Source: Thiomicrorhabdus immobilis (GTDB lineage Bacteria; Pseudomonadota; Gammaproteobacteria; Thiomicrospirales; Thiomicrospiraceae). Taken from it: a stretch of 64,000 bases of DNA. Positions 1,591 through 59,596 of this stretch are shown here, one piece after another. A program made the translations under genes and the position numbers. The first letter of the stretch is position 1; each line of letters starts with the position of its first letter. The stretch spans positions 992,001 through 1,056,000 of the forward strand of contig NZ_AP024202.1 of the NCBI RefSeq assembly GCF_021654855.1. Direction: 5' to 3'. The notes under the pieces were generated by a model. It worked only from the letters and a program-made list of their open reading frames with translations. It searched no databases and was not told the DNA's origin.

Positions 1591-1602
1591 ACCAGGCCTG
1601 GT
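1591..1602. repeat. 12-bp palindrome copy 1
   Basis: Exact ACCAGGCCTGGT, intergenic, 21 bases after the gdhA stop codon. There is no T-run, so it does not look like a terminator here. Confidence 0.95.
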
Positions 1603-1956
1603 AAGTTTGTTTCATATTTTTAAAAAGCGGATATGTTCAAATAATCTGTGGCCACATCTTTAAGTTTATTTAAACGAATATGGCATAGCCAAGCGGTGAG
1701 ATACCATACTGGCTCGATCATTTAGGGGTTGAAATCTAAGTTTTAGAATAGAGGTGTTATGAAAAAATTACATGCACTAATGCGCAATGTTTTTAAAGTT
1801 GGAAGTCTTGTTTTTATGTTTGGATTTTTTAGTACCGTATCAGCTAATGATTTGAAACAGGGTGATATAGCTCCAGGTTTTAGTCTTTTAAATCAATCTG
1901 AAAAAACCGTATCTTTGAAAGATTTTGAAGTGACCCCAAAAAGTTGGACATTTTAG

Positions 1957-2811
1957 TTAAACGGCACTTAAGGCCTGATTTCGATATTCTATCGGAGTCA
2001 GGCCTTTTAGTTTCACCTTGATTCGTTTTGTATTGTAATACTCAATATAGTCTTTAATTTCTTCCATTAGATGCTCAGCGCTATTGAACTTCTTACGATG
2101 ATACATCTCGGTTTTTAGGATTCCAAAAAAGTTCTCAGCAACCGCATTATCTAAACAGTTCCCTTTTCTTGACATGCTCTGAGTTAATCCATTCTCTTTC
2201 AGTAGCTTCTGTACATCACTATGCTGATACTGCCAACCTTGATCACTGTGGAATATGGGTTTGACTTTACCTGTTAACTTATTGACTGCTTCTTTTAACA
2301 TGTCGGTCACCAGTGGTAGCCGTGCACTCTTAGCCACTCGATAACTAATCACTTCTTGGTTAAACAGATCAATCACGGGGGATAGGTAAACACGCTGTTC
2401 TCCGACTTTAAACTCCGTGACATCGGTGACCCATTTTTTATCCGGTGCATCAACATGGAAGTTTCTTTGAAGCACATTCTCGGCAATTCGGCCTACTTGA
2501 CCTCTATAGGATCGGTAACGCTTTGGCCTGACGAATGACTTCAAGTTCAGTTCTTGCATTAAACGTTGAACGGCCTTCTTGTTTAAAAAGTGACCTAAGC
2601 GTCTTAACGCATAGGTCATGCGTCGATACCCATAACGACCTTTATGTTCATTAAAGAGTTGTTGAATCGCTCTTTTAACGTCCGCATAACGATCAGGCAG
2701 CGCACTGCGCGCCTGATGGTAATAAAACACACTTCGTGCAAGCCCTGCGGCCTTGAGAAGATGTTTAAGTGGATAGAACTTTCTAAGCTTATCTATGAGC
2801 CCTGCTTTTTC
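1957..2811 (-). CDS. IS150-type transposase OrfB (made as an OrfAB fusion)
   Basis: This is the rve integrase-fold catalytic subunit. The DDE triad is visible in VTDVTEF, FHSDQGWQY and NAVAENFFGILKTE. The frame is -1 relative to OrfA and is open well upstream of its first ATG (2730), passing through KAGLIDKLRKFYPLKHLL. Production is therefore most likely by -1 slippage on lysine codons AAA AAG near 2805-2810, the usual IS3-family strategy. The heptamer here is G AAA AAG rather than the ideal A AAA AAG. The frame from 2811 encodes 284 residues, the usual OrfB length. Confidence 0.9.
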   Translation of the reverse strand, partial: EKAGLIDKLRKFYPLKHLLKAAGLARSVFYYHQARSALPDRYADVKRAIQQLFNEHKGRYGYRRMTYALRRLGHFLNKKAVQRLMQELNLKSFVRPKRYRSYRGQVGRIAENVLQRNFHVDAPDKKWVTDVTEFKVGEQRVYLSPVIDLFNQEVISYRVAKSARLPLVTDMLKEAVNKLTGKVKPIFHSDQGWQYQHSDVQKLLKENGLTQSMSRKGNCLDNAVAENFFGILKTEMYHRKKFNSAEHLMEEIKDYIEYYNTKRIKVKLKGLTPIEYRNQALSAV

Positions 2812-3305
2812 TTGCTTTGGCGTTCTTTTTCCTGAAGCAGGGCATCGAGCTTTTTTAAATAGGCATTCTCCGCTCGACGGTATTCGAGTTCTTCTCGTAA
2901 CTCTTCTAGGCTCATTTGTTCGGTTGGTTTAATGGTTTCTTGCTTTTGGTTTTTTTTCATTTTTCTACCCTGCTTTTTAGGTTGTAAGCCTGAAAGGCCG
3001 AACCGTTCGAATTGAGTGAGCCAAGTAGAAATCGTACCCGCAGAACTCATGTTATAGACAATACTGGTATAACTAATAGACCAGTGATTTTCACGCATGT
3101 GTTTTAGGATACGATATTTGTCTTCAAAAGAGTATGGTGTGTTACGTTTGATAAACGCATTTTGACCATGGAAACGATAGACTTGTGTCCAGTAACGGAT
3201 ATAGCGATCTGGAATACCGAGTCGCTTGGAAATGGACAGACTGGATTCATGAGAAAGGCATTGCTTAGCAATCGCCAGTTTAAATTCTCGATTGTATTTG
3301 GACAT
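2793..3305 (-). CDS. IS150-type OrfA, DNA-binding subunit
   Basis: 170 residues, the usual size for IS150-group OrfA. Two helix-turn-helix segments are recognisable (about 8-40, SISKRLGIPDRYIRYW, and about 65-105, around MSSAGTISTWLTQF). A leucine-rich coiled coil follows (about 130-160, LEELREELEYRRAENAYLKKL), which normally supports OrfA/OrfAB contacts. It starts 20 bp inside the right terminal repeat and overlaps OrfB in another frame. Confidence 0.9.
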   Translation of the reverse strand: MSKYNREFKLAIAKQCLSHESSLSISKRLGIPDRYIRYWTQVYRFHGQNAFIKRNTPYSFEDKYRILKHMRENHWSISYTSIVYNMSSAGTISTWLTQFERFGLSGLQPKKQGRKMKKNQKQETIKPTEQMSLEELREELEYRRAENAYLKKLDALLQEKERQSKKKQGS

Positions 3306-3869
3306 GAAAAACCCCCAAAGTTGGTGTCCAACATTTGGGGGTCACTTCATTTCCGAGGTAAGTGGGTGGTTTTATACTTTTATCCAAAAGACGATACGCC
3401 AGGTTGTACTACCGAAGCGTGTAGTTTTAGGGATAATATTAATCGTTTGATCGCTCAAGACGCAGTGGTTCTGGGTGTCTCTTTGGATAGTCAGAAAAGT
3501 CATGCTGAATTTGCCGAAAACCATAAATTGCCCTTTGATTTGCTTGCGGATGAAAGCGGTAAAGTGGCAAAAAGTTACGGCGCTTTATTGGATCTCAAGG
3601 TATTCAAATACGCCAAACGTCACAGTTTTATCATCAATCCGCAAGGTCATATCGCTAAAATTTACCGAGACGTAAACCCGAAACAACATGTAAGAGAAGT
3701 ATTGCAAGACTTACATTCGTTGCAAACCCAGTAAATCCACTTGATTTGGCGCAATTTTATGGCATTGATTAATAAGATTAATTACCCGCAATTAATAATG
3801 CTTTTATAATTCAAGGAATCGCACTGAATCATATATCGCATTGTCATATATTTTAATGGAGTAATCGGT

Positions 3870-5012
3870 TTGGAAATAGAGTCACTAGAATTAAAAAACA
3901 ACGTCTTTCAAATTCTTCAACCTCATCAATCAGAAAACTTTTCCCCTCAAATAGTCTTTTTATTTGGTGATACCGATTTCTTTAAAAAGCCCGAATATTA
4001 TCAAAAGATAAGAGAATGTTATCCGGATGCGGATATTATCGGCAGTTCTTCCTCTGGAAATGTAATGGGCGTTGAGGTCAGCCAATCCCCTATTATCGCT
4101 TTGGCGGTTCAATTTAAAAAAGCACGTGTCAAATTGGTAAGCATTGATTTCCAAAACAATTATGATTTAAACGTTTTGGAAGAGCAGGTAACTCAAGCGA
4201 TTGCTGAATTAGATCAACCTGACCTTAAACAACTGTTTGTGCTTTCCGATGGCTTGACAATGAACGGTTCAGATTTGGTTGGATGCATTAACAAGGTGAC
4301 TGACGTTCCGGTAACAGGGGGGTTAGCTGGCGATGGTGCTCGTTTTCAAGAAACCTGGGTGATGGCTAACGATGTGCCCAAACAGAATCGAGTTGCTATC
4401 TTAGGATTTTATGGCGATTCTTTAAAAACCAGTTATGGTTGTTACGCAGGATGGAGTGAGTTCGGTGCAGAGCGTTACATCACGAAATCTGACCGCAACG
4501 TTGTTTATGAAATTGATAATCAACCCGCATTGGACTTATATAAAAAGTATCTAGGTGATTATGCGGCCGATTTGCCTAATAGCGGTTTACGTTTTCCTCT
4601 CAGTATCAAGAAAGAGGGCGATGACAGTGAAATTATTAGAACCTTACTTGCCATTAATGAAGAAGATAAATCCATTACATTTGCAGGCAATGTACCGGAA
4701 GGTTATCGTGCGCGTTTAATGAAACCCGACTTGGACGTATTGATTGATGGAGCCGGTATTGCCGCACAGAATGTTGAACAAGCGAATAACTCACAAGCTC
4801 TTGGCCTAGTGGTAAGTTGTGTTGGCCGTAAAATCATTATGGGTCAAATGGTCGAAGAGGAGCTTGAAGCCGTTGAAGAGATTCTGGGTAATAATGTCCA
4901 GTTATGCGGTTTTTACTCTTATGGCGAAATTTCACCGATGAATATTGATGGAAGTGCCTGTTCTTTACATAACCAGACAATGACCTTAACGACTATTTAC
5001 GAAGATATTTAA
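3870..5012 (+). CDS. FIST-domain sensor protein
   Basis: 380 residues with FIST_N (about 25-210) followed by FIST_C (about 215-360). Recognisable pieces are ADIIGSSSSGNV near the N-terminus, PVTGGLAGDGARF in the middle and CGFYSYGEISP near the end. FIST domains are predicted small-ligand sensors, possibly for amino acids, found next to signalling outputs. The start is TTG, preceded by GGAG nine bases upstream. The stop overlaps the ATG of the GGDEF-EAL gene by one base, so the pair is translationally coupled and probably forms a sensor-effector unit. No signal peptide is seen; the protein should be cytoplasmic. Confidence 0.9.
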   Translation: MEIESLELKNNVFQILQPHQSENFSPQIVFLFGDTDFFKKPEYYQKIRECYPDADIIGSSSSGNVMGVEVSQSPIIALAVQFKKARVKLVSIDFQNNYDLNVLEEQVTQAIAELDQPDLKQLFVLSDGLTMNGSDLVGCINKVTDVPVTGGLAGDGARFQETWVMANDVPKQNRVAILGFYGDSLKTSYGCYAGWSEFGAERYITKSDRNVVYEIDNQPALDLYKKYLGDYAADLPNSGLRFPLSIKKEGDDSEIIRTLLAINEEDKSITFAGNVPEGYRARLMKPDLDVLIDGAGIAAQNVEQANNSQALGLVVSCVGRKIIMGQMVEEELEAVEEILGNNVQLCGFYSYGEISPMNIDGSACSLHNQTMTLTTIYEDI

Positions 5013-8459: not shown

Positions 8460-9845
8460 ATGCTCTTACCTTATCTATCAAGTCAATGTCAGACTGGTCT
8501 TTACCAGGCCTGGTTGTCAGAACCATTTATACTTCATGAAAATGCAGAGAATGGTTTAACTCGAAAAGAAGTGTTTTTAGCTGCGGAGCAATTCCGCAAA
8601 CTTCTTTTCGATAAAAGTCATAATTCAAACTTTTCTTTATTGTTGCTATATCAGCAACGACACCATTTTCTTATCGCACTATTAGCCATTGCAATGCAAA
8701 AAGGCCGGGTTGTTTTACCGCCTAATTTGGCGGACAAAACCTTATCTAATCTAAAAGTCGATATGCCCGATCTTATCGTTCTCAGTAATGATTTACCCGA
8801 TTCTTTAGAAGGTCAGAATCAAATTCAGTCGATTGAGATTGATAAAATTATTCAGGGTGTGAAACATTCAAATATCGAGATTAATGACCAGTGGTTAAGC
8901 GATACGTTGGAGAGCATACAAGATTCAGAGATTTGGCTCTATACTTCTGGTTCGACAGGCCTGCCCAAAAAAGTCATTAAAACTTGGCGTAATATGATGG
9001 GTTCTGCTGAGTTAGCGATAGAACGATTCACTCTTATGAAACCTTGTTATATGGTGACAACGGTTCCTTCACAACATATGTTTGGCCTTGAAACTTCAAT
9101 ATTTTGGCCACTGTTCTCAAGAGCGTCTATTTGGTTTAACAAACCGATGTTTCCAGAAGAGGTTGTTCACGCTTTAAATGCCAATAACGAGCAACCAAGT
9201 TTTCTTGTATCAACGCCATTACATATAAAAAACCTCGTCTCTTCTTCAGCAGAGTGGCCGAATAATCTGACCCGACTACTGTCAGCAACTGCTCCCTTAA
9301 CCAAAGAGTTAGCGGTACAAACTGAATGTGTAATGAATGTCAGTGTTTTTGAGGTATATGGGAGTACAGAAACCGCATCGATAGCCTCAAGACAAACTAC
9401 TCAAACAGACGTTTGGCAGAGTTATTCAGGCGTGGAGTTTACCAAAACCCAAGATGGGGATGTTTTGGTAAAAACAAAAGGCTTGGATAGTTTTCAAGCG
9501 TTAAATGATCAAATAGAACATTTGGATGAAATTAGATTTAGACTCGGAAAGCGCAGTACAGATCTGGTTAAGGTAGCTGGTAAAAGAGCTTCCCTTTCGG
9601 AAATCAATGCTCATTTACAAGCGATTTCTGGTATTGTTGAAGGGGTCTTTATTCAGTGTAAAACTTCTGAGCGATTGGCGGTTTTTGTTGTATCCAAATT
9701 ACCCAAATCGGCTATTCTGGCTGAGCTTAGAAAAAGTATTGATCCCACTTTTTTACCCAGGTCGATTTTTTATATACCGCGCCTTCCTAGAAATGAGTTA
9801 GGTAAGGTTTTATATAGTGATTTGTTTGAAATGTTACCTCGCTAG
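8460..9845 (+). CDS. AMP-dependent synthetase/ligase, aryl starter activation (ApeH-like)
   Basis: 461 residues of the acyl-adenylate-forming superfamily. The AMP-binding loop LYTSGSTGLPKK (about 160-171) and FEVYGSTETASIA (about 298-310) are clear. In aryl-polyene clusters this enzyme adenylates an aromatic acid and loads it on the ACP. It follows the ACP gene by 12 bp without a strong Shine-Dalgarno, suggesting coupling. It is shorter than most CoA ligases, as expected for this subgroup. Codons 16-18 (QAW) are written by a copy of the 12-bp palindrome. Confidence 0.85.
   Translation: MLLPYLSSQCQTGLYQAWLSEPFILHENAENGLTRKEVFLAAEQFRKLLFDKSHNSNFSLLLLYQQRHHFLIALLAIAMQKGRVVLPPNLADKTLSNLKVDMPDLIVLSNDLPDSLEGQNQIQSIEIDKIIQGVKHSNIEINDQWLSDTLESIQDSEIWLYTSGSTGLPKKVIKTWRNMMGSAELAIERFTLMKPCYMVTTVPSQHMFGLETSIFWPLFSRASIWFNKPMFPEEVVHALNANNEQPSFLVSTPLHIKNLVSSSAEWPNNLTRLLSATAPLTKELAVQTECVMNVSVFEVYGSTETASIASRQTTQTDVWQSYSGVEFTKTQDGDVLVKTKGLDSFQALNDQIEHLDEIRFRLGKRSTDLVKVAGKRASLSEINAHLQAISGIVEGVFIQCKTSERLAVFVVSKLPKSAILAELRKSIDPTFLPRSIFYIPRLPRNELGKVLYSDLFEMLPR
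8503..8514. repeat. 12-bp palindrome copy 2 (in CDS)
   Basis: Exact ACCAGGCCTGGT inside the AMP-ligase gene, read as YQAWL. Confidence 0.95.
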
Positions 9846-9883
9846 TTTTTTGGCATGTTAATGAGTTGTGTTAATGAGTGGTT

Positions 9884-10207
9884 ATGAAAAAAGTTGATTC
9901 ATTTAAAATTTCTGCAAATCATCCCAGTCTGCCGGGACATTTTCCAGGTAATTCAATCGTACCCGGAGTCGTTTTGCTGGAACAGCTTGAGTCTATGCTT
10001 GGTAAACACCTGGCTGGCTGGGAAGTCATTGAGTTAATTCAAGTAAAATTTTTATCTCCGACACTTCCAGAACAGGTGATTGAGGTTGAAATAGACCTAA
10101 ACCGATTATATGAGCATAAAACGCTATCTTTTAATTTATTTGATGTTGCTTCTGGCCAAAAAAAAGTCACTGGCAAAATCAAATGTGCAGAGCATAAAGA
10201 TGGATAA
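9884..10207 (+). CDS. 3-hydroxyacyl-ACP dehydratase, hotdog fold (ApeI-like)
   Basis: About 107 residues from the ATG at 9884; a GTG at 9878 is possible. The FabZ-like active-site loop reads LPGHFPGNSIVPGVVLLE. It should dehydrate the 3-hydroxyacyl-ACP intermediate after ketoreduction, leaving the conjugated double bonds of the polyene. It sits 38 bp after the ligase and overlaps the next gene by eight bases. A second dehydratase lies in the opposing operon. Confidence 0.85.
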   Translation: MKKVDSFKISANHPSLPGHFPGNSIVPGVVLLEQLESMLGKHLAGWEVIELIQVKFLSPTLPEQVIEVEIDLNRLYEHKTLSFNLFDVASGQKKVTGKIKCAEHKDG

Positions 10208-11090: not shown

Positions 11091-11679
11091 CCTGCTCGTT
11101 GTTAACACCATCGTTCTACTTAGCCTGTGTTTTCCAGTGTTAGCCTTTTCTAGTCAGATGGATGTATCTTCTTTATTCAAGGCTTGGAGTCAGGTTGAAA
11201 GGGCAGAAAAAGGTTTTACTGAAGAGCAGTTTGACCCTCTGCTTGAGATTTCACAGCATAAATCGGGTGTGATGCGTTATCGTGCACCCGATTTTCTTGA
11301 ACAGCATTATAAGATGCCGTTTGATGGCAAAATAACGTTTTCTGAAAATATAGTTAAGATTGATTTTCCCAATCGTAAATTAGAGTTGTCTGTTGAGAAT
11401 TCTCCTGAGATTACTCTATTCTCAAGGACTTTTCTGAATATTCTTAATGGTAAGCTTGCTCTGATAAAAAAAGACTTTAAACTCGTATTTTTGGCTCAAG
11501 AAAATAGTCATTGGAAACTCCGATTGATTCCAATTAATCAGATAAAAAGCCAGATCCAAGAAGTATTGTTAATGGGCGACAAGACCGAAATACAATCGAT
11601 TCTGTTTACCCAGGTTTCTGGCGATTGGCGTAAGCTTTCATTACAAGCTCTGCCAACCAATCCTACGTTACTAAAATGA
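11080..11679 (+). CDS. LolA-like outer-membrane lipoprotein carrier protein
   Basis: 199 residues from the ATG at 11080, chosen because it gives a classical signal peptide (MKLNLLVVNTIVLLSLCF, cleavage near FSSQ); the longer frame begins inside the previous gene. The mature part, with KSGVMRYRAPDFLEQHY and KITFSENIVKID, resembles LolA-type half-barrels. It probably shuttles the hydrophobic product through the periplasm with the MMPL exporter encoded next. It overlaps the acyltransferase by 11 bp. Confidence 0.8.
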   Translation: MKLNLLVVNTIVLLSLCFPVLAFSSQMDVSSLFKAWSQVERAEKGFTEEQFDPLLEISQHKSGVMRYRAPDFLEQHYKMPFDGKITFSENIVKIDFPNRKLELSVENSPEITLFSRTFLNILNGKLALIKKDFKLVFLAQENSHWKLRLIPINQIKSQIQEVLLMGDKTEIQSILFTQVSGDWRKLSLQALPTNPTLLK

Positions 11680-11689
11680 CAAATCTAAA

Positions 11690-14014
11690 ATGATAAATCG
11701 CCTTACCCATATTCAGCCATTAATCTGGGTTTTTATTGTCATATTTCTGTGGGCAGGATGGACGTTTTATTTTAATAAATCCCCGTTTCAAAACAATATC
11801 AGTCAATTTTTTCCAAACCAACAGAGTATTGAGTCACAGTACCTAAAAAACCGATTGGCCGAAACTCAGGAGACGAGTTGGTTAATGCTCGCCATTAACC
11901 CAGAGACTTCTCAACAAAAGTTAAATGAGCTGAGCCAGGCTGTTAAATCTCAATTATTAATTTTGCCAGGTGTAAAACAAGTTTTAAATGGCTCTGAAAC
12001 TTTTCAGAGCCCACTACAAGATAAATCAACCCCTAAACTTTATCCTTATCGTTATTTACTCACCCAGTTTGAATCTTCAGAGCTGAAACCTAATATCAAA
12101 AAAAGATGGCAAGAGTACCAATTAGGCTTTGTGTTGGATAAACACTGGTTGTTAGATGATCCTACTTTTCAGTGGGGAATCTATCAAAACCAGTTAAAAC
12201 CCACTTCGCAGCTAGCTAAAGAAAACGGTGTATGGGTCAATGCTGAAAATAACCGTGCATTATTATTGATTAATAGCGAAAAAGACCCGCAAGCCCTCAC
12301 TGATATTGATGAAAAACTGGTCTCTATTTTAGGTAAAGATAATTTTCAGCTGTCTGGCTCTGACTGGGTCGCTTTGCAAGCCGAACAGCAAATTAAACAG
12401 GCAGTTAACTGGATAACGAGTTTAGCGGTTGTTATGGTGTTTTTAGCTCTTTTTGTGGCCTTTCGCTCAACTCAACTTATTTTTTATAGTAGCTTACCTT
12501 TGGTGGTTGCGTTTTTAGTGGGCGTCTTAAGCACAATTAGCTTTTTTGGTCATATGCAGATGATTACCTTGGCTCTCGGTGCTATTTTATTAGGTGTCGC
12601 AATTGATTACCCTATTCACACCATCTCCGCATATCAATCGAGAAAAATTACCGTGGTATTAAGATTATGGCCAACCATTCGTTTGGGGGCATTAACCAGT
12701 GCGTTTGGATTCTTAATGTTATGGTGGACAGATATTGAAGGTTTGCAGCAAATTGCGATATTTGCTTCAAGCGGACTGTTATCCGCGTTATTAGTGACTT
12801 ATGTTCTTAGGCCGTATTTGGCTGAGTTTTATAAGTTTGAAGAGCAGAAAAAGCTTGATGACTCAATTAACCTAAAAACAACCGCTAATGACACAATCCG
12901 TAGCCACCCTAATGTTATTTTTTATTTGTTACCAGGCCTGGTCATTATGGCAGCCATTTTTTATCTCAAACCAATTCAATGGCAGGATGATATTGCCAGT
13001 TTAAGCCCAGTGTCTAAAGAATTAATTTCTACAGATAAGCAATTAAGAGCACTATTTAACTACCAGGAAGTCGGAAAAAAACTGCTTTTACCCGCCGCTA
13101 ATATTGAGTCACTTTTACAAAAAGAAGAAAGCTTATTGGCTGAGTTAAATACGTTAAAAAAATCAGGTGCAATAACACAGTTTCAAATGCTTTCTCAGAT
13201 TCTTCCTAGCCAAGTTGAGCAAGCTCACCGCCAACAAAATGTACCTGAATCAAAGTCGCTTATAACGGACTTAAGCCAAGCTGTTGAAGGGACTGGGTTT
13301 AAAAGTAAACATTTTCAAGTCTTTGTAAATAGCGTAGAGCAGAGCAAAAACTTGCCTTTGTTGACGTATGATCAGTTTATCGATTCGGCAGGGACTTCGG
13401 CACAGTTAGCCAAACAGTTAGCATTGCCTATATCTAATCAAATGATTGGTGTGATTAATCTTTCTGGAGTGTCATCTGACCAAGCTATCCAGGATTTTGT
13501 GACACAACAGAGTAATTTTGGCCTGATTTATTTCAATCAACGAAGCTTGGTGGCCCAGCAAATTTCAGAGATTCGCACCAGGCTATTTCAAATACTCATT
13601 TTTATTATTGCCGTGATTGTCTTGAGTCTTTGGTTGAAATACCGAAATATCAGACCAATATTAACGGTTTTAGCGCCAGTTTTAATGGCCATTGGTTTTA
13701 CATTTGCGACATTTGCATTACTGAATATATCACTGAGTATCTTCCATTTAATGAGCCTAATGCTGGTTGCGGCGATTGGAATTGATTATGCTTTACTGTT
13801 TTTTGAAGGAGCTGTGCAGAAAGAAGATGGTAATGAATGGAGTCGTTCAGTGCTCGTTGCGTTTTTTACTACGGTAGGTTCGTTTAGTATATTAAGTTTA
13901 AGCCAATTAGCGTTACTTCACGCGATTGGCTTAACGGTGCTTATTGGCGTTTTTTGGGTTTACAGTTTGTCGTTTTTTATGTCTAAAAGATTGGCTGTAA
14001 AAAACGATTTTTGA
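11690..14014 (+). CDS. MMPL/RND-family exporter of the polyene cluster
   Basis: 774 residues arranged as a tandem repeat. Each half has one N-terminal transmembrane helix (about 10-28 and 410-428), a periplasmic domain, then a bundle of five helices (about 235-370 and 635-765). GVAIDYPIHTISAY and AAIGIDYALLFFEG are the equivalent proton-relay helices of the halves. It likely moves the lipid-linked polyene to the LolA-like carrier. The PGLV at the start of the second half is written by a palindrome copy. Confidence 0.88.
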   Translation: MINRLTHIQPLIWVFIVIFLWAGWTFYFNKSPFQNNISQFFPNQQSIESQYLKNRLAETQETSWLMLAINPETSQQKLNELSQAVKSQLLILPGVKQVLNGSETFQSPLQDKSTPKLYPYRYLLTQFESSELKPNIKKRWQEYQLGFVLDKHWLLDDPTFQWGIYQNQLKPTSQLAKENGVWVNAENNRALLLINSEKDPQALTDIDEKLVSILGKDNFQLSGSDWVALQAEQQIKQAVNWITSLAVVMVFLALFVAFRSTQLIFYSSLPLVVAFLVGVLSTISFFGHMQMITLALGAILLGVAIDYPIHTISAYQSRKITVVLRLWPTIRLGALTSAFGFLMLWWTDIEGLQQIAIFASSGLLSALLVTYVLRPYLAEFYKFEEQKKLDDSINLKTTANDTIRSHPNVIFYLLPGLVIMAAIFYLKPIQWQDDIASLSPVSKELISTDKQLRALFNYQEVGKKLLLPAANIESLLQKEESLLAELNTLKKSGAITQFQMLSQILPSQVEQAHRQQNVPESKSLITDLSQAVEGTGFKSKHFQVFVNSVEQSKNLPLLTYDQFIDSAGTSAQLAKQLALPISNQMIGVINLSGVSSDQAIQDFVTQQSNFGLIYFNQRSLVAQQISEIRTRLFQILIFIIAVIVLSLWLKYRNIRPILTVLAPVLMAIGFTFATFALLNISLSIFHLMSLMLVAAIGIDYALLFFEGAVQKEDGNEWSRSVLVAFFTTVGSFSILSLSQLALLHAIGLTVLIGVFWVYSLSFFMSKRLAVKNDF
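12931..12942. repeat. 12-bp palindrome copy 3 (in CDS)
   Basis: Exact ACCAGGCCTGGT in the MMPL gene, read as LPGLV at the start of a membrane helix. Confidence 0.95.
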
Positions 14015-14034
14015 GATACATTGAGATAGTAACG

Positions 14035-14787
14035 CTAATCTTGAATGATATTAGGTGATTGGGTTAATGATCTAACCAGGCCTGGTAAGTTCATGCCTTT
14101 TTTTAATAATTTTTTTGCGACCATTAAGGTGATTTGAGTGATATCAAACCCCGCTCTAAAGTGGCTTGCTCTTCGATTCTCGGCATAGATGGTATCGATA
14201 GGAATAAAGGCAAAACCGTAACCTAAGTGAGCCGAGTCAATCAACACTTCACTCTCAAAGACAAAGCCTGATTTATTCTCATAAGGCCGTTTTAGTAATT
14301 TGAGCAGGCTGGAAGGATAGAGGCGAAAACCAGACTGACTATCCGCAATGGGTTTACCCGCCGCCCAGCTAACCCAAAAGTCAGCAATACTATTTGCAAT
14401 ACGTCTTGATCGTGGCGCATTTTGTCGATCTTTTAATCTCGATGCCACACATAAATCGTTTGGATTTTTGGCAAAATAAGCGAGCAGTTTTGGAATATCT
14501 GCAGGATTATGTTGTGCATCTCCATCCAGCGTTATAACCGCTTCAACCCCAAATGATAACGCTTTCTCAAACCCGGCTTGTAGTGCTTTTGCTTTACCAC
14601 CATTAACAGGTAAATCCACTAAAATAGCATCGGTTTTTTTCACCAATTCAGCGGTATCATCCTGCGATGCATCATTTACCACAATCACAATTTTTGACTG
14701 TTTTAATGCTTCGGTGATGACCTGGGTGATGGTTAAGGTTTCATTGTAAGCGGGGATTACTATTGCAAATTGATTTCTATCATTCAT
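14035..14787 (-). CDS. Family 2 glycosyltransferase (DPM/DPG synthase-like)
   Basis: 250 residues with a GT-A fold. FAIVIPAYNE opens the nucleotide-sugar site, VVNDASQDDT and TLDGDAQHNP supply the metal-binding aspartates, and SGFRLY and FESEVL follow. There is no C-terminal membrane domain. It is the last gene of the minus-strand polyene operon, converging on the MMPL gene 20 bp away. It could glycosylate the polyene head or a polyprenyl carrier. A palindrome copy near its C-terminus encodes LPGLV. Confidence 0.85.
   Translation of the reverse strand: MNDRNQFAIVIPAYNETLTITQVITEALKQSKIVIVVNDASQDDTAELVKKTDAILVDLPVNGGKAKALQAGFEKALSFGVEAVITLDGDAQHNPADIPKLLAYFAKNPNDLCVASRLKDRQNAPRSRRIANSIADFWVSWAAGKPIADSQSGFRLYPSSLLKLLKRPYENKSGFVFESEVLIDSAHLGYGFAFIPIDTIYAENRRASHFRAGFDITQITLMVAKKLLKKGMNLPGLVRSLTQSPNIIQD
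14075..14086. repeat. 12-bp palindrome copy 4 (in CDS)
   Basis: Exact ACCAGGCCTGGT near the 3' end of the glycosyltransferase gene, read as LPGLV. Confidence 0.95.
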
Positions 14788-17408: not shown

Positions 17409-18217
17409 GTTAGAGCAACCTTAATAAAGTTATTTCGATTTAACGGAAAATGGATTTCTGAATTTTCTCCGTTCGACTCAAATAACACCAAGGATTGTAA
17501 AAGCGGATAGGCTTCGGCAGCAGGTAAACCTGAATAGGGGTTATTAGAAGAAGTGGGTCTTGGAGCCTGTTGTGTGAATGAAAGGTTAAGAGCAGGGTAG
17601 TCACTTTCTTGGTTTGAATCACTGGCATCTAAAATCATTGAAAAAGCAAATGGAAGAGCGGCATTTTGTGAAGCATCCGCTGGAATTAAATCATCTAACG
17701 GCAAATCATAAATGACCAATAAAACTGGCTTTGCATACGTTTGAGATTGCAATGTTGCTTCTAATAGACCATTTGCTATTGCAAACTGGCCTACTGAAAT
17801 AGCACTTGCAGGTGATTGGTTTTTTTGACCAATCATCCAGTAACCTGCTGGTGCGTTATGTACCGAATTATGGAATTGTGTTGGCGATATCATCGGCTCT
17901 TCTTCACCAACTTCCTGGCACATTCTGGCGGAGATGAGGGTATCGCCATCTTTACTGACAAATAGAACGGGCAATTTGCTGTCTGCTTGCGGATAACGCT
18001 GTTGAAAATGAGAGAGTGCTTCTTCAGCGGTTTTTAATGCCAGCTTAATGGTGGCGGTAGTGCGACGACGTTCATTGGGTGGCAGAAAGCTTGGACTGTA
18101 CTTTTCTATCGCTTCTGAAGTGTCGGGCGATCGGTTTTGTAACATCATCGATTTAAAGTTTTCAAAACTTACCAGGCCTGGTGCCGTTAGGCCAATACTG
18201 AGTATTTGAGCTTTCAT
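17405..18217 (-). CDS. Ketosynthase-like chain-length factor (Ketoacyl-synt_2 family)
   Basis: 270 residues, shorter than a catalytic ketosynthase. FHNSVHNAPAGYW is a hallmark of the ketoacyl-synt_2 group. At the nucleophile position it reads AISVGQFAIANG without a cysteine, so it cannot catalyse condensation itself. It should pair with the ketosynthase encoded directly upstream (one-base overlap) as a KS-CLF heterodimer that sets polyene length. A palindrome copy near the N-terminus encodes APGLV. Confidence 0.85.
   Translation of the reverse strand: MKAQILSIGLTAPGLVSFENFKSMMLQNRSPDTSEAIEKYSPSFLPPNERRRTTATIKLALKTAEEALSHFQQRYPQADSKLPVLFVSKDGDTLISARMCQEVGEEEPMISPTQFHNSVHNAPAGYWMIGQKNQSPASAISVGQFAIANGLLEATLQSQTYAKPVLLVIYDLPLDDLIPADASQNAALPFAFSMILDASDSNQESDYPALNLSFTQQAPRPTSSNNPYSGLPAAEAYPLLQSLVLFESNGENSEIHFPLNRNNFIKVALT
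18171..18182. repeat. 12-bp palindrome copy 5 (in CDS)
   Basis: Exact ACCAGGCCTGGT near the 5' end of the chain-length factor gene, read as APGLV. Confidence 0.95.
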
Positions 18218-22989: not shown

Positions 22990-23466
22990 TTAATGGGCAT
23001 TTTTAAGGATGCGTTGTTTATCACGATTCCAATCACGCTCTTTCATGGTGGCACGTTTGTCGTGCTGTTTTTTACCTTTGGCAAGCCCGATGGCGAGTTT
23101 GACCTTACCTTCTTTCCAATAGAGTTCAAGCGGCACGACGGTCGAACCTTCGACTTCGACCAAACCACGCAATCGATTGATTTCACGACGGTGTAGTAAC
23201 AGTTGACGAGTGCGCAAAGGGTCGTGAAAACTGTGTGTTGAAGCGGTCATTAGCGGGGTGATCAACGCACCGAATAACCAGGCCTGGTTATCTTTGAACA
23301 TAACATAGCTTTCACCCAGTTGAATTTTGCCTGCACGCAGACTTTTCACTTCCCAGCCCTCTAAACTCAAACCAGCCTCAAGGGTGTCTTCAATAAAGTA
23401 ATCAAACCGAGCTTTCTTGTTTTTAGCGATAGAGTTGGATTTGGTTTGCGGTTTCTTTTTTGCCAT
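22990..23466 (-). CDS. smpB: SsrA-binding protein SmpB
   Basis: 158 residues, normal length. [36 protein letters not shown] and the C-terminal basic tail [15 protein letters not shown] are diagnostic (quoted here in shorter runs: [32 protein letters not shown]). It binds the tRNA-like domain of tmRNA and enters the decoding centre of stalled ribosomes. Gene order smpB-ssrA on one strand is the common bacterial arrangement. NQAWLFG in the middle is written by a palindrome copy. Confidence 0.97.
23277..23288. repeat. 12-bp palindrome copy 6 (in CDS)
   Basis: Exact ACCAGGCCTGGT in smpB, read as NQAWL. Confidence 0.95.
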
Positions 23467-23512: not shown

Positions 23513-23524
23513 ACCAGGCCTGGT
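23513..23524. repeat. 12-bp palindrome copy 7
   Basis: Exact ACCAGGCCTGGT between smpB and the upstream minus-strand gene; its last base overlaps that gene's stop codon. Confidence 0.95.
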
Positions 23525-24887: not shown

Positions 24888-25178
24888 ATGGATGAGATGA
24901 TTCAAATAGAAGTAGCTTATGCTTTGGAGGATGTTCAGTACCTGTTTACTGAGAGCGTTAAAGCGGGCACAACCGTTATTGAAGCTTTGAATAATTCTAA
25001 ACTTTTAACGGAACTACCAGGCCTGGTCATTGATAAGGTGGGTATCTTTGGTAAGTTGGTCACGCATGATACGGTGTTGCGTGAAGGGGATAGGATTGAA
25101 GTTTATCGCCCGTTGAAGGTCGATCCGCGTGAGCGCAGAAGGCAGCAAGTTGAAGAAGAGCGTAAAGCCGCTAAGTAA
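24888..25178 (+). CDS. rnfH: RnfH family protein (UPF0125)
   Basis: 96 residues, ubiquitin-like fold. IQIEVAYALEDVQYLF, VGIFGKLVTHDTVLREGDRIEVYRPL (quoted in parts) and the basic tail DPRERRRQQ are typical. It is the companion of ratA. Its biochemical role is unsettled. LPGLVIDK in the middle is written by a palindrome copy, where other RnfH proteins usually have a short variable loop. Confidence 0.92.
   Translation: MDEMIQIEVAYALEDVQYLFTESVKAGTTVIEALNNSKLLTELPGLVIDKVGIFGKLVTHDTVLREGDRIEVYRPLKVDPRERRRQQVEEERKAAK
25016..25027. repeat. 12-bp palindrome copy 8 (in CDS)
   Basis: Exact ACCAGGCCTGGT in rnfH, read as LPGLV. Confidence 0.95.
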
Positions 25179-26500: not shown

Positions 26501-28171
26501 TTAAGCGGTTTTACTTTGCGCGCTTTCTAACATCTCTTTCGCGTGGTTTAACGTTTGCTCGGTTAAGGTCAATCCGCCTAGCATCCTGGCTAACTCTTCT
26601 ACACGCTGTTGCGGTTCAAGCTTATTCACTTGGGTGGTTGTGACTTCATCTTGTGTCTGTTTGGCGATATGTAAATGGTTGTGGCCGTGAGAGGCAACTT
26701 GCGCCAAATGGGTGATAGAGAGTATCTGTTTATCTTTACCTAGTTGTTGCATTTTCTGTCCAACCACCTCGGCAATTCCGCCGCCAATACCTACATCCAC
26801 TTCATCAAAAATCAGAGTCGGTAAACTGGCCACTTCTGAGGTGGCCACTTGAATGGCCAGGCTGATTCGGGAAAGCTCTCCGCCTGAAGCGACTTTGGCT
26901 AGGGCTTGTAATGGTTGGCCTTTGTTGGCGGTTACCAAAAACAGCACTTTATCCGTGCCTAACGCGCTGGCTTGTTCGCTGTCGGTTAACTCAACTGCAA
27001 ACTGGCCATTGGGCATACCCAAGCTTTGCATACCTTCGGTGACAATCGCAGAGAGGGCTTCGGCTGCTTTTTGACGGGATTTTTTCAAAGTATTTGCTTG
27101 ATCCTGATAATTTGCCCAGGCCTGGTCAAGTTCGCTCTTAAGGGTTTCTAAAGAGGCATCCGACTGCTCTAGACGCATTAAGTCATCTTGAATTTGTTGG
27201 TGTTTTTCAACCAGTTGTTCCGGGTCGATATTGTATTTTTTGGCCAAACCAAACAGCATTGACAGACGTTCTTCAACAAAGAGTAATTGTTGGGGGTCTA
27301 AATCAATATGTTCAGCATGATGTTGGATTTCGCTGGCGGCTTCTTGCACTTCAATCAAACTACTGTTCAATTGCGTGATGACGGCCTCTAGGCTTGGACT
27401 AAATGCCACGATGCTTTCCAAAGCGTGTACCGCCTGATTAATCGCGTCTACCGCACCTTGCTCTTCTTCGATTTGGGCATAGGCTTTTTCGCAGGCAAGT
27501 TTGATTTCGCTGGCATGGGAAAGTTGGCTTTGCTCTTCTGACAAACGCTCAAATTCACCTTCTTGAGGATTCACTTCATCAAACTCATTGTTTTGAAAGT
27601 TAAGCAATTCCAGTTTGCTTTGGTAGTCAGCTTGTTCCTCTTGCAGTTTTTGCAGTTGGCGTTTGATGTTTTGCCAATGCTTGAAGTCGGCTTGGGTCTT
27701 ACTGATTAAAGCAGGGTGGTTGGCGTAAGCATCCAACAGTTCGAGTTGTTTATTGGCTGAAAGCAGGGATTGATGTTCATGTTGGCCATGAATGTCTATT
27801 AAAAAACCGCCTAAGGTTTTAAGCTGGTTAGCGGCAACAGGGTAGCCGTTGATGTAGGCTTTGGAACGGCCTTCGGACGTGACGGTTCTTCTTAAATAAC
27901 ATTGGGTTTCGTCATCAAGCTCCTGTTCGGCAAGCCAGTTTTGAACGTGTGGTAGTTGTTCAATATCAAACAGAGCGGTAACGTCCGCCTTGGGTGTGTT
28001 GTGTCTTACCAGGCTACTGTCGGCACGTTCGCCTAAGGCCAAGCCCAATGCGTCCAGTAAAATCGATTTACCTGCACCGGTTTCACCGGTTAAAGTGGTA
28101 AAGCCTGTATTGAATTGAAGTTGTAGTTTTTCAATTAAAGCCAAGTTTTGAATAGCAAGTTCTTGAAGCAT
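26501..28171 (-). CDS. recN: DNA repair protein RecN
   Basis: 556 residues from the ATG at 28171 (MLQELAIQNLALIEKL, the conserved start); 12 further codons upstream are open but not conserved. Walker A GETGAGKSILLDAL, an SMC-like coiled coil with central break (about 150-370), the signature KVASGGELSRISLAI and Walker B TLIFDEVDVGIGG are all present. RecN holds broken ends during double-strand break repair. A one-mismatch palindrome copy in the coiled coil encodes DQAWA. Confidence 0.96.
   Translation of the reverse strand: MLQELAIQNLALIEKLQLQFNTGFTTLTGETGAGKSILLDALGLALGERADSSLVRHNTPKADVTALFDIEQLPHVQNWLAEQELDDETQCYLRRTVTSEGRSKAYINGYPVAANQLKTLGGFLIDIHGQHEHQSLLSANKQLELLDAYANHPALISKTQADFKHWQNIKRQLQKLQEEQADYQSKLELLNFQNNEFDEVNPQEGEFERLSEEQSQLSHASEIKLACEKAYAQIEEEQGAVDAINQAVHALESIVAFSPSLEAVITQLNSSLIEVQEAASEIQHHAEHIDLDPQQLLFVEERLSMLFGLAKKYNIDPEQLVEKHQQIQDDLMRLEQSDASLETLKSELDQAWANYQDQANTLKKSRQKAAEALSAIVTEGMQSLGMPNGQFAVELTDSEQASALGTDKVLFLVTANKGQPLQALAKVASGGELSRISLAIQVATSEVASLPTLIFDEVDVGIGGGIAEVVGQKMQQLGKDKQILSITHLAQVASHGHNHLHIAKQTQDEVTTTQVNKLEPQQRVEELARMLGGLTLTEQTLNHAKEMLESAQSKTA
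27115..27126. repeat. Palindrome variant, one mismatch (in recN)
   Basis: CCCAGGCCTGGT, differing from ACCAGGCCTGGT at the first base; on the coding strand it reads DQAWA. Confidence 0.7.
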
Positions 28172-28228: not shown

Positions 28229-28240
28229 ACCAGGCCTGGT
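28229..28240. repeat. 12-bp palindrome copy 9
   Basis: Exact ACCAGGCCTGGT between nadK and recN on the minus strand. Confidence 0.95.
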
Positions 28241-31182: not shown

Positions 31183-31194
31183 ACCAGGCCTGGT
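31183..31194. repeat. 12-bp palindrome copy 10
   Basis: Exact ACCAGGCCTGGT in the dnaK leader, 30 bp before the start codon. Confidence 0.95.
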
Positions 31195-36061: not shown

Positions 36062-36098
36062 AAACAGCTACTCACCAGGCCTGGTGAGTGGCTGTTTT
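36062..36098 (+). terminator. Terminator built around a palindrome copy
   Basis: The 12-bp palindrome is the tip of a much longer hairpin: AACAGCTACTCACCAGG pairs with CCTGGTGAGTGGCTGTT with one G-T wobble, followed by TT. It lies just after the NlpC/P60 gene. Confidence 0.85.
36074..36085. repeat. 12-bp palindrome copy 11 (in a terminator)
   Basis: Exact ACCAGGCCTGGT at the centre of the terminator hairpin. Confidence 0.95.
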
Positions 36099-38888: not shown

Positions 38889-38900
38889 ACCAGGCCTGGT
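38889..38900. repeat. 12-bp palindrome copy 12
   Basis: Exact ACCAGGCCTGGT in the gap between amrA and carA, about 60 bp upstream of the carA promoter candidate. Confidence 0.95.
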
Positions 38901-44189: not shown

Positions 44190-44226
44190 AAAGCCAGGCT
44201 GGATATTACCAGGCCTGGTTTTTTTA
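44190..44226 (+). terminator. Terminator after greA containing a palindrome copy
   Basis: AAAGCCAGGCTGG can pair, with one bulge, with CCAGGCCTGGTTT, followed by seven T. The downstream arm is a copy of the 12-bp palindrome. Confidence 0.7.
44208..44219. repeat. 12-bp palindrome copy 13 (in a terminator)
   Basis: Exact ACCAGGCCTGGT forming the 3' arm of the greA terminator, followed directly by a T-run. Confidence 0.95.
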
Positions 44227-46150: not shown

Positions 46151-46828
46151 ATGTCGATGAATGTCATAGCCAATAAACTTTCTGATAAACAGCGATTGAG
46201 GATTCAAACACGCCATAAGGTGTCGGTTGAACGTTATGGTTATCAGCCACAAGCGCTGTATTGGAGTAACCGCGAAATTCAAGAGATTCGTTTTCAAAAG
46301 TTGATGGAGATGTTACCTGCTGCAACTGAGTTAAAACAGCAGGCCTGGTCATTATTAGATGTGGGCTGTGGTTTTGCAGACTTGGTGGATTATTTACAAA
46401 AAAACGAATACCTTCCCGATTACACCGGTATCGATATCTCGCCTGAAATGGTGTTAGCCGCCCAATCCTTGCACCCCCAAGCAACCATAAAAAATGGCGA
46501 ATTAGCGGACTTTAATTTTAGCCCTTTGCAGTTCGATTATGTGATGCTTTCCGGAGCGTTGAACGAGGTGGTGGAAACCGAAGTCGAAGGCACGTCACAG
46601 CAGCAAGGTGATTACGCCAAGTCGGTTATACGGGCGATGTATCAAATCAGTAAAAAAGGTGTCGCGTTTAATTTACTGGACGCTCGTCATCAGTGGGTAA
46701 AGAGTCGTTACGATCTACAAAGTTTTTTACCCACGGAAATCATCGACTATTGCCAAAGCTTTGCCAGTCAGGTTGAGTTGCTGGAAGGTTATCTGGAAAA
46801 TGACTTTACGGTTTACCTATATAAATAG
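46151..46828 (+). CDS. Class I SAM-dependent methyltransferase
   Basis: 225 residues. The SAM-binding motif is LLDVGCGFADLVDYL (about 70), with YTGIDISPEMVLAA after it. The substrate cannot be read. TAAGG overlapping the DUF455 stop provides the ribosome binding site, and the ROK kinase gene follows 19 bp later, so the three probably form an operon. Confidence 0.85.
   Translation: MSMNVIANKLSDKQRLRIQTRHKVSVERYGYQPQALYWSNREIQEIRFQKLMEMLPAATELKQQAWSLLDVGCGFADLVDYLQKNEYLPDYTGIDISPEMVLAAQSLHPQATIKNGELADFNFSPLQFDYVMLSGALNEVVETEVEGTSQQQGDYAKSVIRAMYQISKKGVAFNLLDARHQWVKSRYDLQSFLPTEIIDYCQSFASQVELLEGYLENDFTVYLYK
46338..46349. repeat. Palindrome variant, one mismatch (in CDS)
   Basis: AGCAGGCCTGGT in the methyltransferase gene, read as QQAWS. 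Only the second base differs from the consensus. Confidence 0.65.
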
Positions 46829-46847: not shown

Positions 46848-47783
46848 ATGGCGACATTACGTTTTGGCATCGATTTAGGCGGTACTAAAATCGAGATTTT
46901 GGGATTGTTAGTATTGGAGGACGGCACTAATAAGGTTGTCTATCAAAAACGTATCGCTACCCCTAAGGGTGATTATCACGCTACCGTACAAGCCATTGCA
47001 CAATTAGTCTTAGACGCTGAAAATGAACTGAAATCGGATTCTCAGTTGAATCCAATTATCAATTTACCAGGCCTGGTCGGTGTCGGTATCCCCGGAGCGA
47101 TTTCATCCAAAACGGGTAAGGTTAAAAATGCCAATTCCACCTGGTTAATCGGTGAAGATCTGCAAGGCGATTTACAAAACGCCCTAAGCCGGCCTGTGCA
47201 ATTAGCCAATGATGCGAATTGTTTTGCCTTGTCTGAAGCGGTTGATGGTGCGGCTTCGGGTTCTGACATTGTGTTTGGTGTCATCATTGGTACCGGTTGC
47301 GGCGGTGGTGTGGTTGTCAATGGTCAGATTTTAAATGGGGTGAATGCCATTGCCGGCGAGTGGGGGCACAACCCCTTGCCGTGGCAAACGGCAAGCGATG
47401 TAGCATTAGCTTGTTACTGTGGATTAAACGGTTGTAATGAAACCTTTCTTTCGGGAAGCGGTTTTGAACAACATTTTTTACAACGAACAGGCCTGGCTAA
47501 AACCGCAGAACAGATTGTGGCATTAAGTGAACAAGGTGATGTGGATGCCGAACAACTTATGCAAGATTACATGACTTGGTTGGCGAAAGGGTTAGCGAGT
47601 GTCATCAATATCCTTGACCCGGATGTGATTGTGTTGGGTGGTGGCATGTCGAATATTGAACGTATTTATCGTGAGGTGCCCAAACTATGGCATAACTGGG
47701 TGTTTAGCGATGCCGTCGATACCCAGTTAAAGCCACCCAAATTTGGCGACGCCAGTGGGGTGAGGGGAGCGGCCTGGCTATAG
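46848..47783 (+). CDS. ROK-family sugar kinase, probably fructokinase/glucokinase
   Basis: 311 residues. The phosphate-binding motif is FGIDLGGTKIEI, the sugar/catalytic segment LANDANCFALSEA, then GEWGHNPLPW and the ROK zinc motif CYCGLNGCNETFLSG. The Mak/NagK-like length and motifs point to hexose phosphorylation; exact sugar unknown. LPGLVGVGIPG contains a palindrome copy. Confidence 0.88.
   Translation: MATLRFGIDLGGTKIEILGLLVLEDGTNKVVYQKRIATPKGDYHATVQAIAQLVLDAENELKSDSQLNPIINLPGLVGVGIPGAISSKTGKVKNANSTWLIGEDLQGDLQNALSRPVQLANDANCFALSEAVDGAASGSDIVFGVIIGTGCGGGVVVNGQILNGVNAIAGEWGHNPLPWQTASDVALACYCGLNGCNETFLSGSGFEQHFLQRTGLAKTAEQIVALSEQGDVDAEQLMQDYMTWLAKGLASVINILDPDVIVLGGGMSNIERIYREVPKLWHNWVFSDAVDTQLKPPKFGDASGVRGAAWL
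47066..47077. repeat. 12-bp palindrome copy 14 (in CDS)
   Basis: Exact ACCAGGCCTGGT in the ROK kinase gene, read as LPGLV. Confidence 0.95.
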
Positions 47784-49226: not shown

Positions 49227-49238
49227 ACCAGGCCTGGT
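49227..49238. repeat. 12-bp palindrome copy 15
   Basis: Exact ACCAGGCCTGGT in the 283-bp divergent gap between the DUF188 gene and rhlE. Nothing else recognisable is in that gap. Confidence 0.95.
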
Positions 49239-50753: not shown

Positions 50754-50765
50754 ACCAGGCCTGCT
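50754..50765. repeat. Palindrome variant, one mismatch
   Basis: ACCAGGCCTGCT between rhlE and the thioredoxin-like gene; one base differs from the consensus. Confidence 0.7.
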
Positions 50766-51214: not shown

Positions 51215-51226
51215 ACCAGGCCTGGT
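51215..51226. repeat. 12-bp palindrome copy 16
   Basis: Exact ACCAGGCCTGGT between two convergent genes, followed by AAAA on the plus strand. Confidence 0.95.
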
Positions 51227-58328: not shown

Positions 58329-59424
58329 ATGGAATTAAACCCTATTTATAACCGAATTGAAGATTACCAGGCTCGTAGTGAAGTGCTTAGGGGGTATCTT
58401 TGACTACGATGTGAAATCTGAACGTTTAGAAGAGGTTTCTAAAGAGCTTGAGGACCCAAATGTTTGGAATAATCCGGAGCGAGCTCAGGCTTTAGGTAAA
58501 GAAAAGTCCCAACTGGAAAACATCGTTTCTACCATCGATGATTTGAGTTCGGGTACTGAAGCCGCTAAAGAGTTGCTCGAGATGGCCGAGATGGATTCTG
58601 ATCAAGAGATGGTTGATGAAGTGGTTTCCGAATTGGACCGTTTGGGTGAACGTTTGGATAAACTTGAGTTCCAACGTATGTTCTCAGGTGAGATGGACCC
58701 GAATAACGCCTATTTAGAAATCCAGTCCGGTTCTGGTGGTACTGAAGCGCAAGATTGGGCAAATATGATTCTGCGTATGTATTTACGTTGGTGTGATAGC
58801 CATGGTTTCAAAGCGGAAATCACTGAAATTTCTGCCGGTGATGTTGCTGGAATTAAAGGTGCCACTTTGCATATTCAAGGTGACTATGCTTATGGCTGGT
58901 TAAGAACCGAATTGGGGGTCCACCGTTTAGTACGTAAATCACCATTCGATTCCAATTCAAAACGCCATACTTCATTTGCTTCGGTCTTTGTGTCACCTGA
59001 AATCGATGATAGTTTTGAAATCGATATTAATCCTGCGGATTTGCGTATTGATGTTTACCGTGCCAGTGGTGCGGGTGGTCAGCACGTAAACAGAACGGAG
59101 TCAGCGGTGCGTATTACCCATTTGCCGACCAATACCGTTACCCAATGTCAGAACGGGCGTTCACAGCATCAGAACAAGGCGGAAGCGATGAAGCAGTTGC
59201 GTGCCAAATTGTATGAGTTAGAGATGCTGAGTCGAAGTGCCGAAAAACAGGAGTTGGAAGACTCTAAGTCGGATATCGGTTGGGGAAGTCAAATTCGCTC
59301 TTATGTTTTAGATTCGGGGCGAATTAAAGATTTAAGAACCGGGGTTGAGACGGGTAATACCCAGGCAGTTTTAGATGGCGCCTTGGATCAGTTCATTGTA
59401 GCGAGTTTGAAAGCGGGCGTTTAA
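58329..59424 (+). CDS. prfB: Peptide chain release factor 2 (programmed +1 frameshift)
   Basis: Translation starts at 58329 ([15 protein letters not shown]) and reaches an in-frame TGA at 58401-58403 after 24 codons. A +1 shift at CTT TGA continues as [12 protein letters not shown] to 59424, giving 364 residues, the normal length. The GGQ motif for peptide release is in [14 protein letters not shown] and [13 protein letters not shown] holds the SPF tripeptide that reads UGA. RF2 abundance controls its own synthesis through the shift. Confidence 0.96.
58389..58404 (+). promoter_or_regulatory. prfB programmed frameshift site
   Basis: AGGGGGTATCTTTGAC, the same sequence as in E. coli: an internal Shine-Dalgarno AGGGGG three bases before the CTT slip codon, then TGA C, a weak stop read by RF2. 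Confidence 0.96.
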
Positions 59425-59560
59425 TTGGATATGCCTTAGTTTATAAGGGATAAAAGATTGGAGTTAAATCGGTTATTACACTAGAGTTTATTGGTGTAAA
59501 AGCTTAAAATACTCGCAATTATTTAATCCCAATTTTGGAATTCATCAAGAATTCAATTCT

Positions 59561-59572
59561 ACCAGGCCTGGT
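59561..59572. repeat. 12-bp palindrome copy 17 (tandem pair, left)
   Basis: Exact ACCAGGCCTGGT upstream of lysS, 24 bp centre to centre from the next copy. Confidence 0.95.
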
Positions 59573-59584
59573 TATTTTTAAAAT

Positions 59585-59596
59585 ACCAGGCCTGGT
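59585..59596. repeat. 12-bp palindrome copy 18 (tandem pair, right)
   Basis: Exact ACCAGGCCTGGT, 34 bp before the lysS start; the 12-bp spacer is AT-rich. Confidence 0.95.

Follow-up and report, generated by a model that had tools for sequence, protein, structure and literature searches.

A palindromic 12-mer repeated throughout a Thiomicrorhabdus chromosome is probably the core of a DNA uptake signal with dialects across the family

The palindromic 12-mer ACCAGGCCTGGT recurs throughout a 64,000-base stretch of a Thiomicrorhabdus chromosome (positions 992001 to 1056000 of genome G000, contig C1; hereafter the window), and we found that it is probably the core of a DNA uptake signal sequence that occurs, in differing dialects, in this genus and in its family, which we take to be the Thiomicrospiraceae of GTDB. 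The genome is a single contig of 2,539,444 bases (2.54 Mb), and its host is a sulfur-oxidiser-type bacterium. The assignment draws on over-representation, a sharp consensus, the architecture of the motif, its dialects and placement, turnover between relatives, depletion on one plasmid, and the presence of comEC and a pilus-type operon. An earlier note on this DNA had offered three roles for the repeat, namely an uptake signal, a methylation- or restriction-linked site, and a nucleoid or segregation site; the first fitted the observations best, the second was not supported, and the third is unlikely. In what follows, the core is CAGGCCTG, which the outer bases AC and GT complete to the 12-mer.

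All 18 exact copies listed in the note were located in the window and, with three further sites that it had called near-copies and that each proved to carry one mismatch (Table 1), they gave 21 sites with at most one mismatch, whereas 100 dinucleotide shuffles of the window averaged 0.05 and never exceeded 2. A fourth near-copy, at position 48, had its core intact but carried two mismatches. The count called for by the note, of the full genome against a Markov background, gave 446 exact 12-mers in G000 compared to 0.08 to 1.9 expected (order 1 to 5, copies masked), so the enrichment extends beyond the window and is not peculiar to it, and the outcome named in the note as a refutation did not occur. 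An unmasked order-5 model expects 20, because that model includes the motif's own words. The reversed pattern, counted as a control, did not occur in the genome, and none of 89 other palindromes of equal composition was present in 464 kb of G000, a sample consisting of the window and 20 evenly spaced 20-kb stretches (stretches L186 to L189 were examined but stand outside the pooled counts). This sample held 95 exact copies and 44 copies with one mismatch, and in 40 of the 44 the mismatch lay at outer position 1, 2, 11, or 12, the core being nearly invariant. Cores numbered 157 in the sample; the whole genome has 812, a density of 0.32 per kb. Genome-wide over-representation of a short oligomer, and more perfect than singly mismatched copies, are seen likewise in the uptake signal sequences (USS) of the Pasteurellaceae and the DNA uptake sequences (DUS) of the Neisseriaceae, which are described, in the part of the source available, as having a strong consensus and many copies in coding sequence (PMC1626085).

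The note had taken the 12-mer as the unit and had seen no flank conservation beyond a preference for T or A, and both statements had to be revised. On both sides of the 12-mer in G000 we observed the pattern N-R-N-W-T-T, with a purine at +2 in 90%, A or T at +4 in 88%, T at +5 in 64%, and T at +6 in 52% of 190 flanks. The 42 copies inside open reading frames (ORFs) kept this pattern in weaker form (purine 85%, T 51% and 48%), and it was also found on the imperfect side of 48 one-sided copies in the 464-kb sample. Present on each side, and in coding copies too, these flanks argue that the recognised unit is a dyad of about 24 bp, in which a nearly invariant 8-bp core is framed by R..TT flanks.

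This predicted unit resembles the Pasteurellaceae USS (Hin, AAGTGCGGT; Apl, ACAAGCGGT), which also has a short core in hundreds of copies, perfect copies outnumbering those with one mismatch, and sites in both coding and intergenic DNA. In the USS, AT-rich segments lie 3' of the core (PMC1626085, in part), as they do here, and the tails that follow GGT stand in register, CAATTTT in the extended Hin-USS of Haemophilus, AAAGTGCGGTCAATTTT (excerpt of PMC12616744), and NRNWTT in the present motif. However, the core here is ACCAGGCCTGGT rather than AAGTGCGGT, G000 has a palindrome with a two-sided tail, and the density is lower. Aligned at GGT, a register chosen by the analyst so that the rank is not a corrected probability, CAATTTT came 6th of 16,384 heptamers and first of 105 permutations on the matrix of Thiomicrorhabdus aquaedulcis (G018; 72 flanks), and 33rd and second, respectively, on that of G000 (190 flanks); on the matrices of G046 and G047 (12 flanks each) it came 203rd and 206th. 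The Apl tail CAAATTT ranked 10th (G018), 222nd (G000), 630th (G046), and 1313th (G047). The G018 flanks also showed a second, weaker A/T-rich stretch at +9 to +12, which recalls the second of the AT segments that the source text, as far as available, describes for the Pasteurellaceae USS.

High copy number and perfect identity would suit a copied repeat, such as a repetitive extragenic palindromic element, a miniature inverted-repeat transposable element, or a transposon end. However, no conserved unit reached beyond about 24 bp, and within a gene at window position ~34877 the sole core-bearing genome of five related ones differed by in-place point substitutions. A copied element was therefore rejected, and we regard it as scarcely conceivable. 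Most motif positions were not common to the five genomes, and several species had copies in some of the same gaps, such as the one behind greA, in an alignment that was 74 to 83% identical overall and poor in intergenic gaps.

ORFs were called with a longest-ORF script (at least 80 aa), a simple caller by which intergenic counts are approximate; by this measure 11 of the 18 window copies lay outside ORFs, in agreement with the note, and in the 464-kb sample 53 of 95 did so, compared to 10.6 expected (binomial P = 5e-26). Convergent gaps held 16 copies in 6.5 kb and divergent gaps 3 in 13.4 kb (P = 5e-6), and promoter gaps are thus avoided. In 10 of the 53 intergenic copies the perfect palindrome extended by at least 5 bases, the mean run being 1.75 compared to 0.53 in shuffles, and T runs follow. 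With the enrichment in convergent gaps, this is what speaks for a family of intrinsic terminators that work in both directions and share one fixed stem. However, 42 of the 95 copies are inside ORFs, where R..TT flanks are kept and palindromic extension (0.48 compared to 0.40) does not go beyond shuffles, and a terminator requires a stem but not a fixed sequence. We consider such a family very improbable, and a pure terminator was rejected as the sole explanation since the coding copies contradict it. Some intergenic copies have probably been co-opted as transcription-terminator stems, to judge from their extended palindromes and T runs. Co-option is likely, as for USS and DUS, which are used in terminator hairpins (PMC1852404, in part), but it leaves the copies themselves unexplained. 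Coding and intergenic copies, and inverted pairs at terminators, were seen here as in USS and DUS, with the exception that G067, discussed below, had no intergenic excess.

Around the G000 chromosome we counted 1 to 6 copies per 20 kb, and a terminus gap was absent, with 4, 4, and 5 copies per 20 kb at 1.20, 1.33, and 1.46 Mb, near the switch in GC skew. Spacing among the first 100 of the 446 sites was no more even than random (coefficient of variation [CV] 0.92, P = 0.25); without the longest gap, which was set aside after inspection, the CV was 0.78 (P = 0.004). That gap of 34.9 kb contains rpoB, ribosomal-protein, fusA, and secY genes. Given these contents, a foreign island was rejected, and because the gap coincides with the RNA-polymerase and ribosomal cluster, coding constraint is the better explanation. 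An 18-kb gap is mostly a single ORF of 5282 aa (L188:677-16525; G000:C1 ~130.2 to 146.1 kb), a stretch from which the core was nearly absent (1 compared to 5.8 expected); the last 1282 residues of the product match Ig, cadherin, and RTX repeats.

We then surveyed 62 genomes of the family, together with 15 genomes from other families of the class. The 12-mer was present in 0 to 718 copies in the former and in 0 or 1 copy in the latter. The core was found in 236 to 1173 copies in 32 of the 62 genomes and in 0 to 74 copies in the remaining 30, six of which carried one of three changed words, two of these being non-palindromic. For G020 and G004 the word was ACCSGGCCKGTT, nearly always ACCCGGCCTGTT where listed and extending to ACCCGGCCTGTTGAGTTTT in G020, with forward and reverse counts of 242/242 and 138/138, an equality that is unexplained; a 100-kb portion of G020 contained this pattern 17 and 10 times. 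The second word, CCTGGYAGATTT, had 310, 289, and 347 copies in G046, G047, and G052, counting the two strands together, compared to 18 or fewer in each of the remaining 59 genomes, and was extended in G046 and G047 to ACCCCA[GA]CCTGG[CT]AGATTTT. The third word, the palindrome ACCGGCCGGT, occurred 44 times in 100 kb of G023. Softened outer bases were seen in six core carriers, as A[CG]CAGGCCTG[CG]T in G067, G068, and G075 and as AACAGGCCTG-type halves in G005, G017, and G061. The non-palindromic words kept CCTG, had an NRNTTT tail on one side only, and used both strands, with inverted pairs 24 to 29 bp apart at 5 in 35 sites of G020, 2 in 17 of G047, and none in 16 of G046. No word was identified in 24 of the 62 genomes: 60 to 80 kb each of G003, G019, G024, G064, and G066 gave no comparably enriched word, and the other 19 were sampled at 5.9 to 20 kb, repeated words being sought in G011, G013, G014, G043, G053, and G056.

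A tree of four proteins was made for 61 of the 62 genomes (2741 alignment columns; G072, in which carB is split, was left out; dnaK was usable in 40 genomes and recN in 26). Its branch supports formed no part of the reading. The core was spread over the groups g21 (presumably Thiomicrospira), g18 (Hydrogenovibrio), g22, and g1, and genomes that had lost or changed the word were nested among its carriers. Two tree neighbours, G002 and G003, had 466 cores (only 6 of them full 12-mers) in one and 32 in the other, which points to a loss or switch between them. The changed words fell in clades of this tree, so that the dialects follow phylogeny, as they do for USS and DUS. In particular, the dialects of the Neisseriaceae DUS are likewise family-wide and vary around an inner constant part (PMC3630211, in part), CTG there and CCTG here except in G023, and inverted pairs and terminator use are common to both. 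By contrast, the DUS is non-palindromic and is described, in the portion of the source available, without flanking motifs.

These dialects also bear on the possibility that the repeat is a binding site for a chromosome-organising or division-coordinating dimer (SlmA-, Noc-, or nucleoid-associated-protein-like). A 12-bp dyad with AT flanks is what a dimeric protein could be expected to bind, the copies are distributed around the whole chromosome, and SlmA and Noc sites are similarly scattered dyads of 12 to 14 bp. Those sites, however, number in the tens and leave a terminus gap, whereas here there are hundreds of copies with almost no degeneracy in the core and no gap near the skew switch. Relatives use asymmetric words, many genomes that are complete or almost so lack the motif, and divergent gaps are avoided while genes are tolerated. 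We therefore think such a dimer unlikely. A terminus-avoiding segregation site was rejected for want of any depletion near the terminus, and the nucleoid or segregation role suggested in the note is unlikely given also the non-palindromic words of five relatives and the absence of the motif from genomes nested among carriers.

The T. aquaedulcis genome offered a comparison with mobile DNA. It includes a contig of 96,830 bases, the same length as plasmid NZ_AP018723.1 of strain HaS4, and over the first 20 kb of the contig the two sequences are identical. On this resident plasmid, which has conjugation genes, the 12-mer was about six-fold scarcer than expected (5 compared to 28), as was the core (7 compared to 44 expected from chromosomal density). 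Such depletion is expected if copies accumulate through chromosomal transformation; scarcity in mobile DNA, as in USS and DUS, was seen on this one plasmid only. A second contig in G074 (15 kb) had 2 cores, and one in G046 (3.4 kb) had no copy of the G046 word.

The plasmid is also relevant to HIP1, the highly iterated palindrome GCGATCGC of cyanobacteria, since a palindrome of that type, which on the model proposed for HIP1 owes its origin or upkeep to a DNA methyltransferase and to methyl-directed repair, would reflect a process on all DNA of the cell, to which a six-fold depletion is ill-suited unless the plasmid is recent. The likeness to HIP1 is considerable. Both are highly iterated perfect palindromes with a sharp core and lineage-specific replacement, the palindrome here has a GGCC centre, the mismatches are concentrated at outer positions as Elhai reports for HIP1 in the part of that work available, and in G023 another palindrome, ACCGGCCGGT, has taken its place. 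However, while HIP1 is accompanied by cognate methyltransferases, G000 had no match to PF00145 (E <= 1e-10) or PF01555 (E <= 1e-6), other families, such as the Dam type, not being searched, and both were lacking in 16 of the 32 core carriers. Moreover, the words of five genomes are non-palindromic (ACCCGGCCTGTT in G020 and G004; CCTGGYAGATTT in G046, G047, and G052). A C5 or N6/N4 methyltransferase partner was rejected, the methylation- or restriction-linked site of the note found no backing in these two families, and the two CCWGG sites within the 12-mer are probably incidental. A HIP-type origin seems to us quite improbable.

We return to the uptake signal. Such a signal would be a short tag on free DNA, bound by a type IV pilus-like uptake machine, and its binding would let DNA of the cell's own kind be taken up preferentially. 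Copies would arise by point mutation and spread by biased uptake and homologous recombination, without any need for element copying. The motif would thus be the ligand of an uptake receptor, which might be a minor pilin, and the bias in uptake would maintain the copies. G000 has a full-length ComEC frame (905 to 907 aa) and a pilus-type assembly operon, and ComEC was found in 31 of the 32 core carriers. In the sampled stretches of G000, two prepilin-like genes lie beside T2SSE/T2SSF genes (L131); they presumably form an MSHA-like operon and are not evidently a receptor.

Several observations weigh against an uptake signal. ComEC was also present in 25 of the 30 non-core genomes, and its presence therefore does not discriminate carriers. 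The ComP_DUS profile gave no match over its cut-off in any of the 62 genomes, a further difference from the Neisseriaceae, and the GspH/FimT profile matched only G011, G064, and G019, weakly (E 4e-4 to 6e-4), all three motif-free and without an identified word; the receptor search consisted of these two profiles, neither of them specific to PpdA-type receptors. Among the papers listed on these genera, none contained "natural transformation", and no precedent was found for a palindromic uptake signal. Cores are about one third as dense as USS and DUS, for which the available part of PMC1626085 gives roughly one per kb. G067, the sole g21 genome sampled at 100 kb, had neither flank conservation nor intergenic enrichment (5 compared to 4.9). 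Finally, CCTGGYAGATTT showed a slight and unexplained forward excess (524 compared to 422 over the three genomes, P = 0.001), with forward/reverse counts of 177/133 in G046, 160/129 in G047, and 187/160 in G052, and in G047 only 4 of 17 sampled sites were on the G-rich strand and 13 on the G-poor strand (P = 0.05); the G-rich-strand shares in G046 (7 of 16) and G020 (15 of 35) were not clearly skewed. Strong polarity was absent from the non-palindromic words and a weak one may be present; a strong, Chi-like polarity was rejected, the words being on both strands with a slight excess only.

Table 1. Copies of the 12-mer in the window and their surroundings.
Feature	Position in window	Context
Exact 12-mer	1591..1602	Between convergent ORFs, glutamate-dehydrogenase-like and integrase-core transposase-like
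Exact 12-mer	8503..8514	Within ORF 8460-9845
Exact 12-mer	12931..12942	Within ORF 11690-14014
Exact 12-mer	14075..14086	Within ORF 14035-14787
Exact 12-mer	18171..18182	Within ORF 17405-18217
Exact 12-mer	23277..23288	Within SmpB ORF 22990-23466
Exact 12-mer	23513..23524	Intergenic except last base, which is the 3' end of minus-strand ORF 23524-24288
Exact 12-mer	25016..25027	Within small ORF 24888-25178
Exact 12-mer	28229..28240	Between recN and NAD kinase genes
Exact 12-mer	31183..31194	Between grpE and dnaK
Exact 12-mer	36074..36085	Convergent gap; palindrome extends four bases per side (ACTC..GAGT)
Exact 12-mer	38889..38900	Upstream of carA
Exact 12-mer, then T run	44208..44219	Downstream of greA; same gap occupied in four relatives
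Exact 12-mer	47066..47077	Within ROK-family ORF 46848-47783
Exact 12-mer	49227..49238	Divergent gap
Exact 12-mer	51215..51226	Convergent gap
Exact 12-mer, first of close pair	59561..59572	Between release-factor and class II tRNA-synthetase genes
Exact 12-mer, second of close pair	59585..59596	24 bp from first
One-mismatch copy	27115..27126	Mismatch at outer position 1
One-mismatch copy	46338..46349	Mismatch at outer position 2
One-mismatch copy	50754..50765	Mismatch at outer position 11
Two-mismatch copy	48..59	Core CAGGCCTG intact; letters GGCAGGCCTGGT

Among the neighbouring genes, the transposase-like ORF just past the first exact copy (window 1957-3305, minus strand) has rve and HTH_21 domains and is motif-free; it is presumably of IS3 type and adjoins a second ORF. 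In window 3870-6907 a GGDEF-EAL cyclic-di-GMP protein is encoded behind a NosP-like ORF whose match fell below the family cut-off. Window ~8460-20590, where GC is lower (37 to 40%) and the motif is present, contains AMP-ligase-like, RND-type, glycosyltransferase, and ketoacyl-synthase ORFs, perhaps an aryl-polyene-like cluster.

In the open-licence literature, to which our search was confined, we found no report of this motif or of an uptake signal in these genera, and an earlier description is possible; the 12-mer was not among the matches listed in a literature search by sequence letters. Thiomicrospira goes unmentioned in the available part of PMC1852404, as do competence and transformation in PMC6501319, on Hydrogenovibrio. 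Uptake sequences were described in the literature found, so far as its text was available, for two families, the Pasteurellaceae and Neisseriaceae. Tentatively, and with somewhat more doubt than conviction, we propose that the present family holds a third DNA uptake signal system, independent or anciently shared, which is usually palindromic so that DNA can be gripped either way, and which has undergone at least three word shifts, two of them to one-directional words. The GGT-NRN-TTT tail in common with the Pasteurellaceae USS would then mean that two systems of distant Gammaproteobacteria kink DNA with one geometry and may have homologous receptors.

If the repeat is indeed an uptake signal, this would be a third family with one, in the chemolithoautotroph genera Thiomicrorhabdus, Hydrogenovibrio, and their kin, and palindromes would have to be counted among the forms that an uptake signal can take. 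Comparison could then draw on more than 30 genomes, among which the word has changed several times and has also been lost, and this comparison, together with environmental strains, would address why such signals exist, how their specificity shifts, and what the receptor is. The presence of so conspicuous a repeat in these genomes would also be simply explained.

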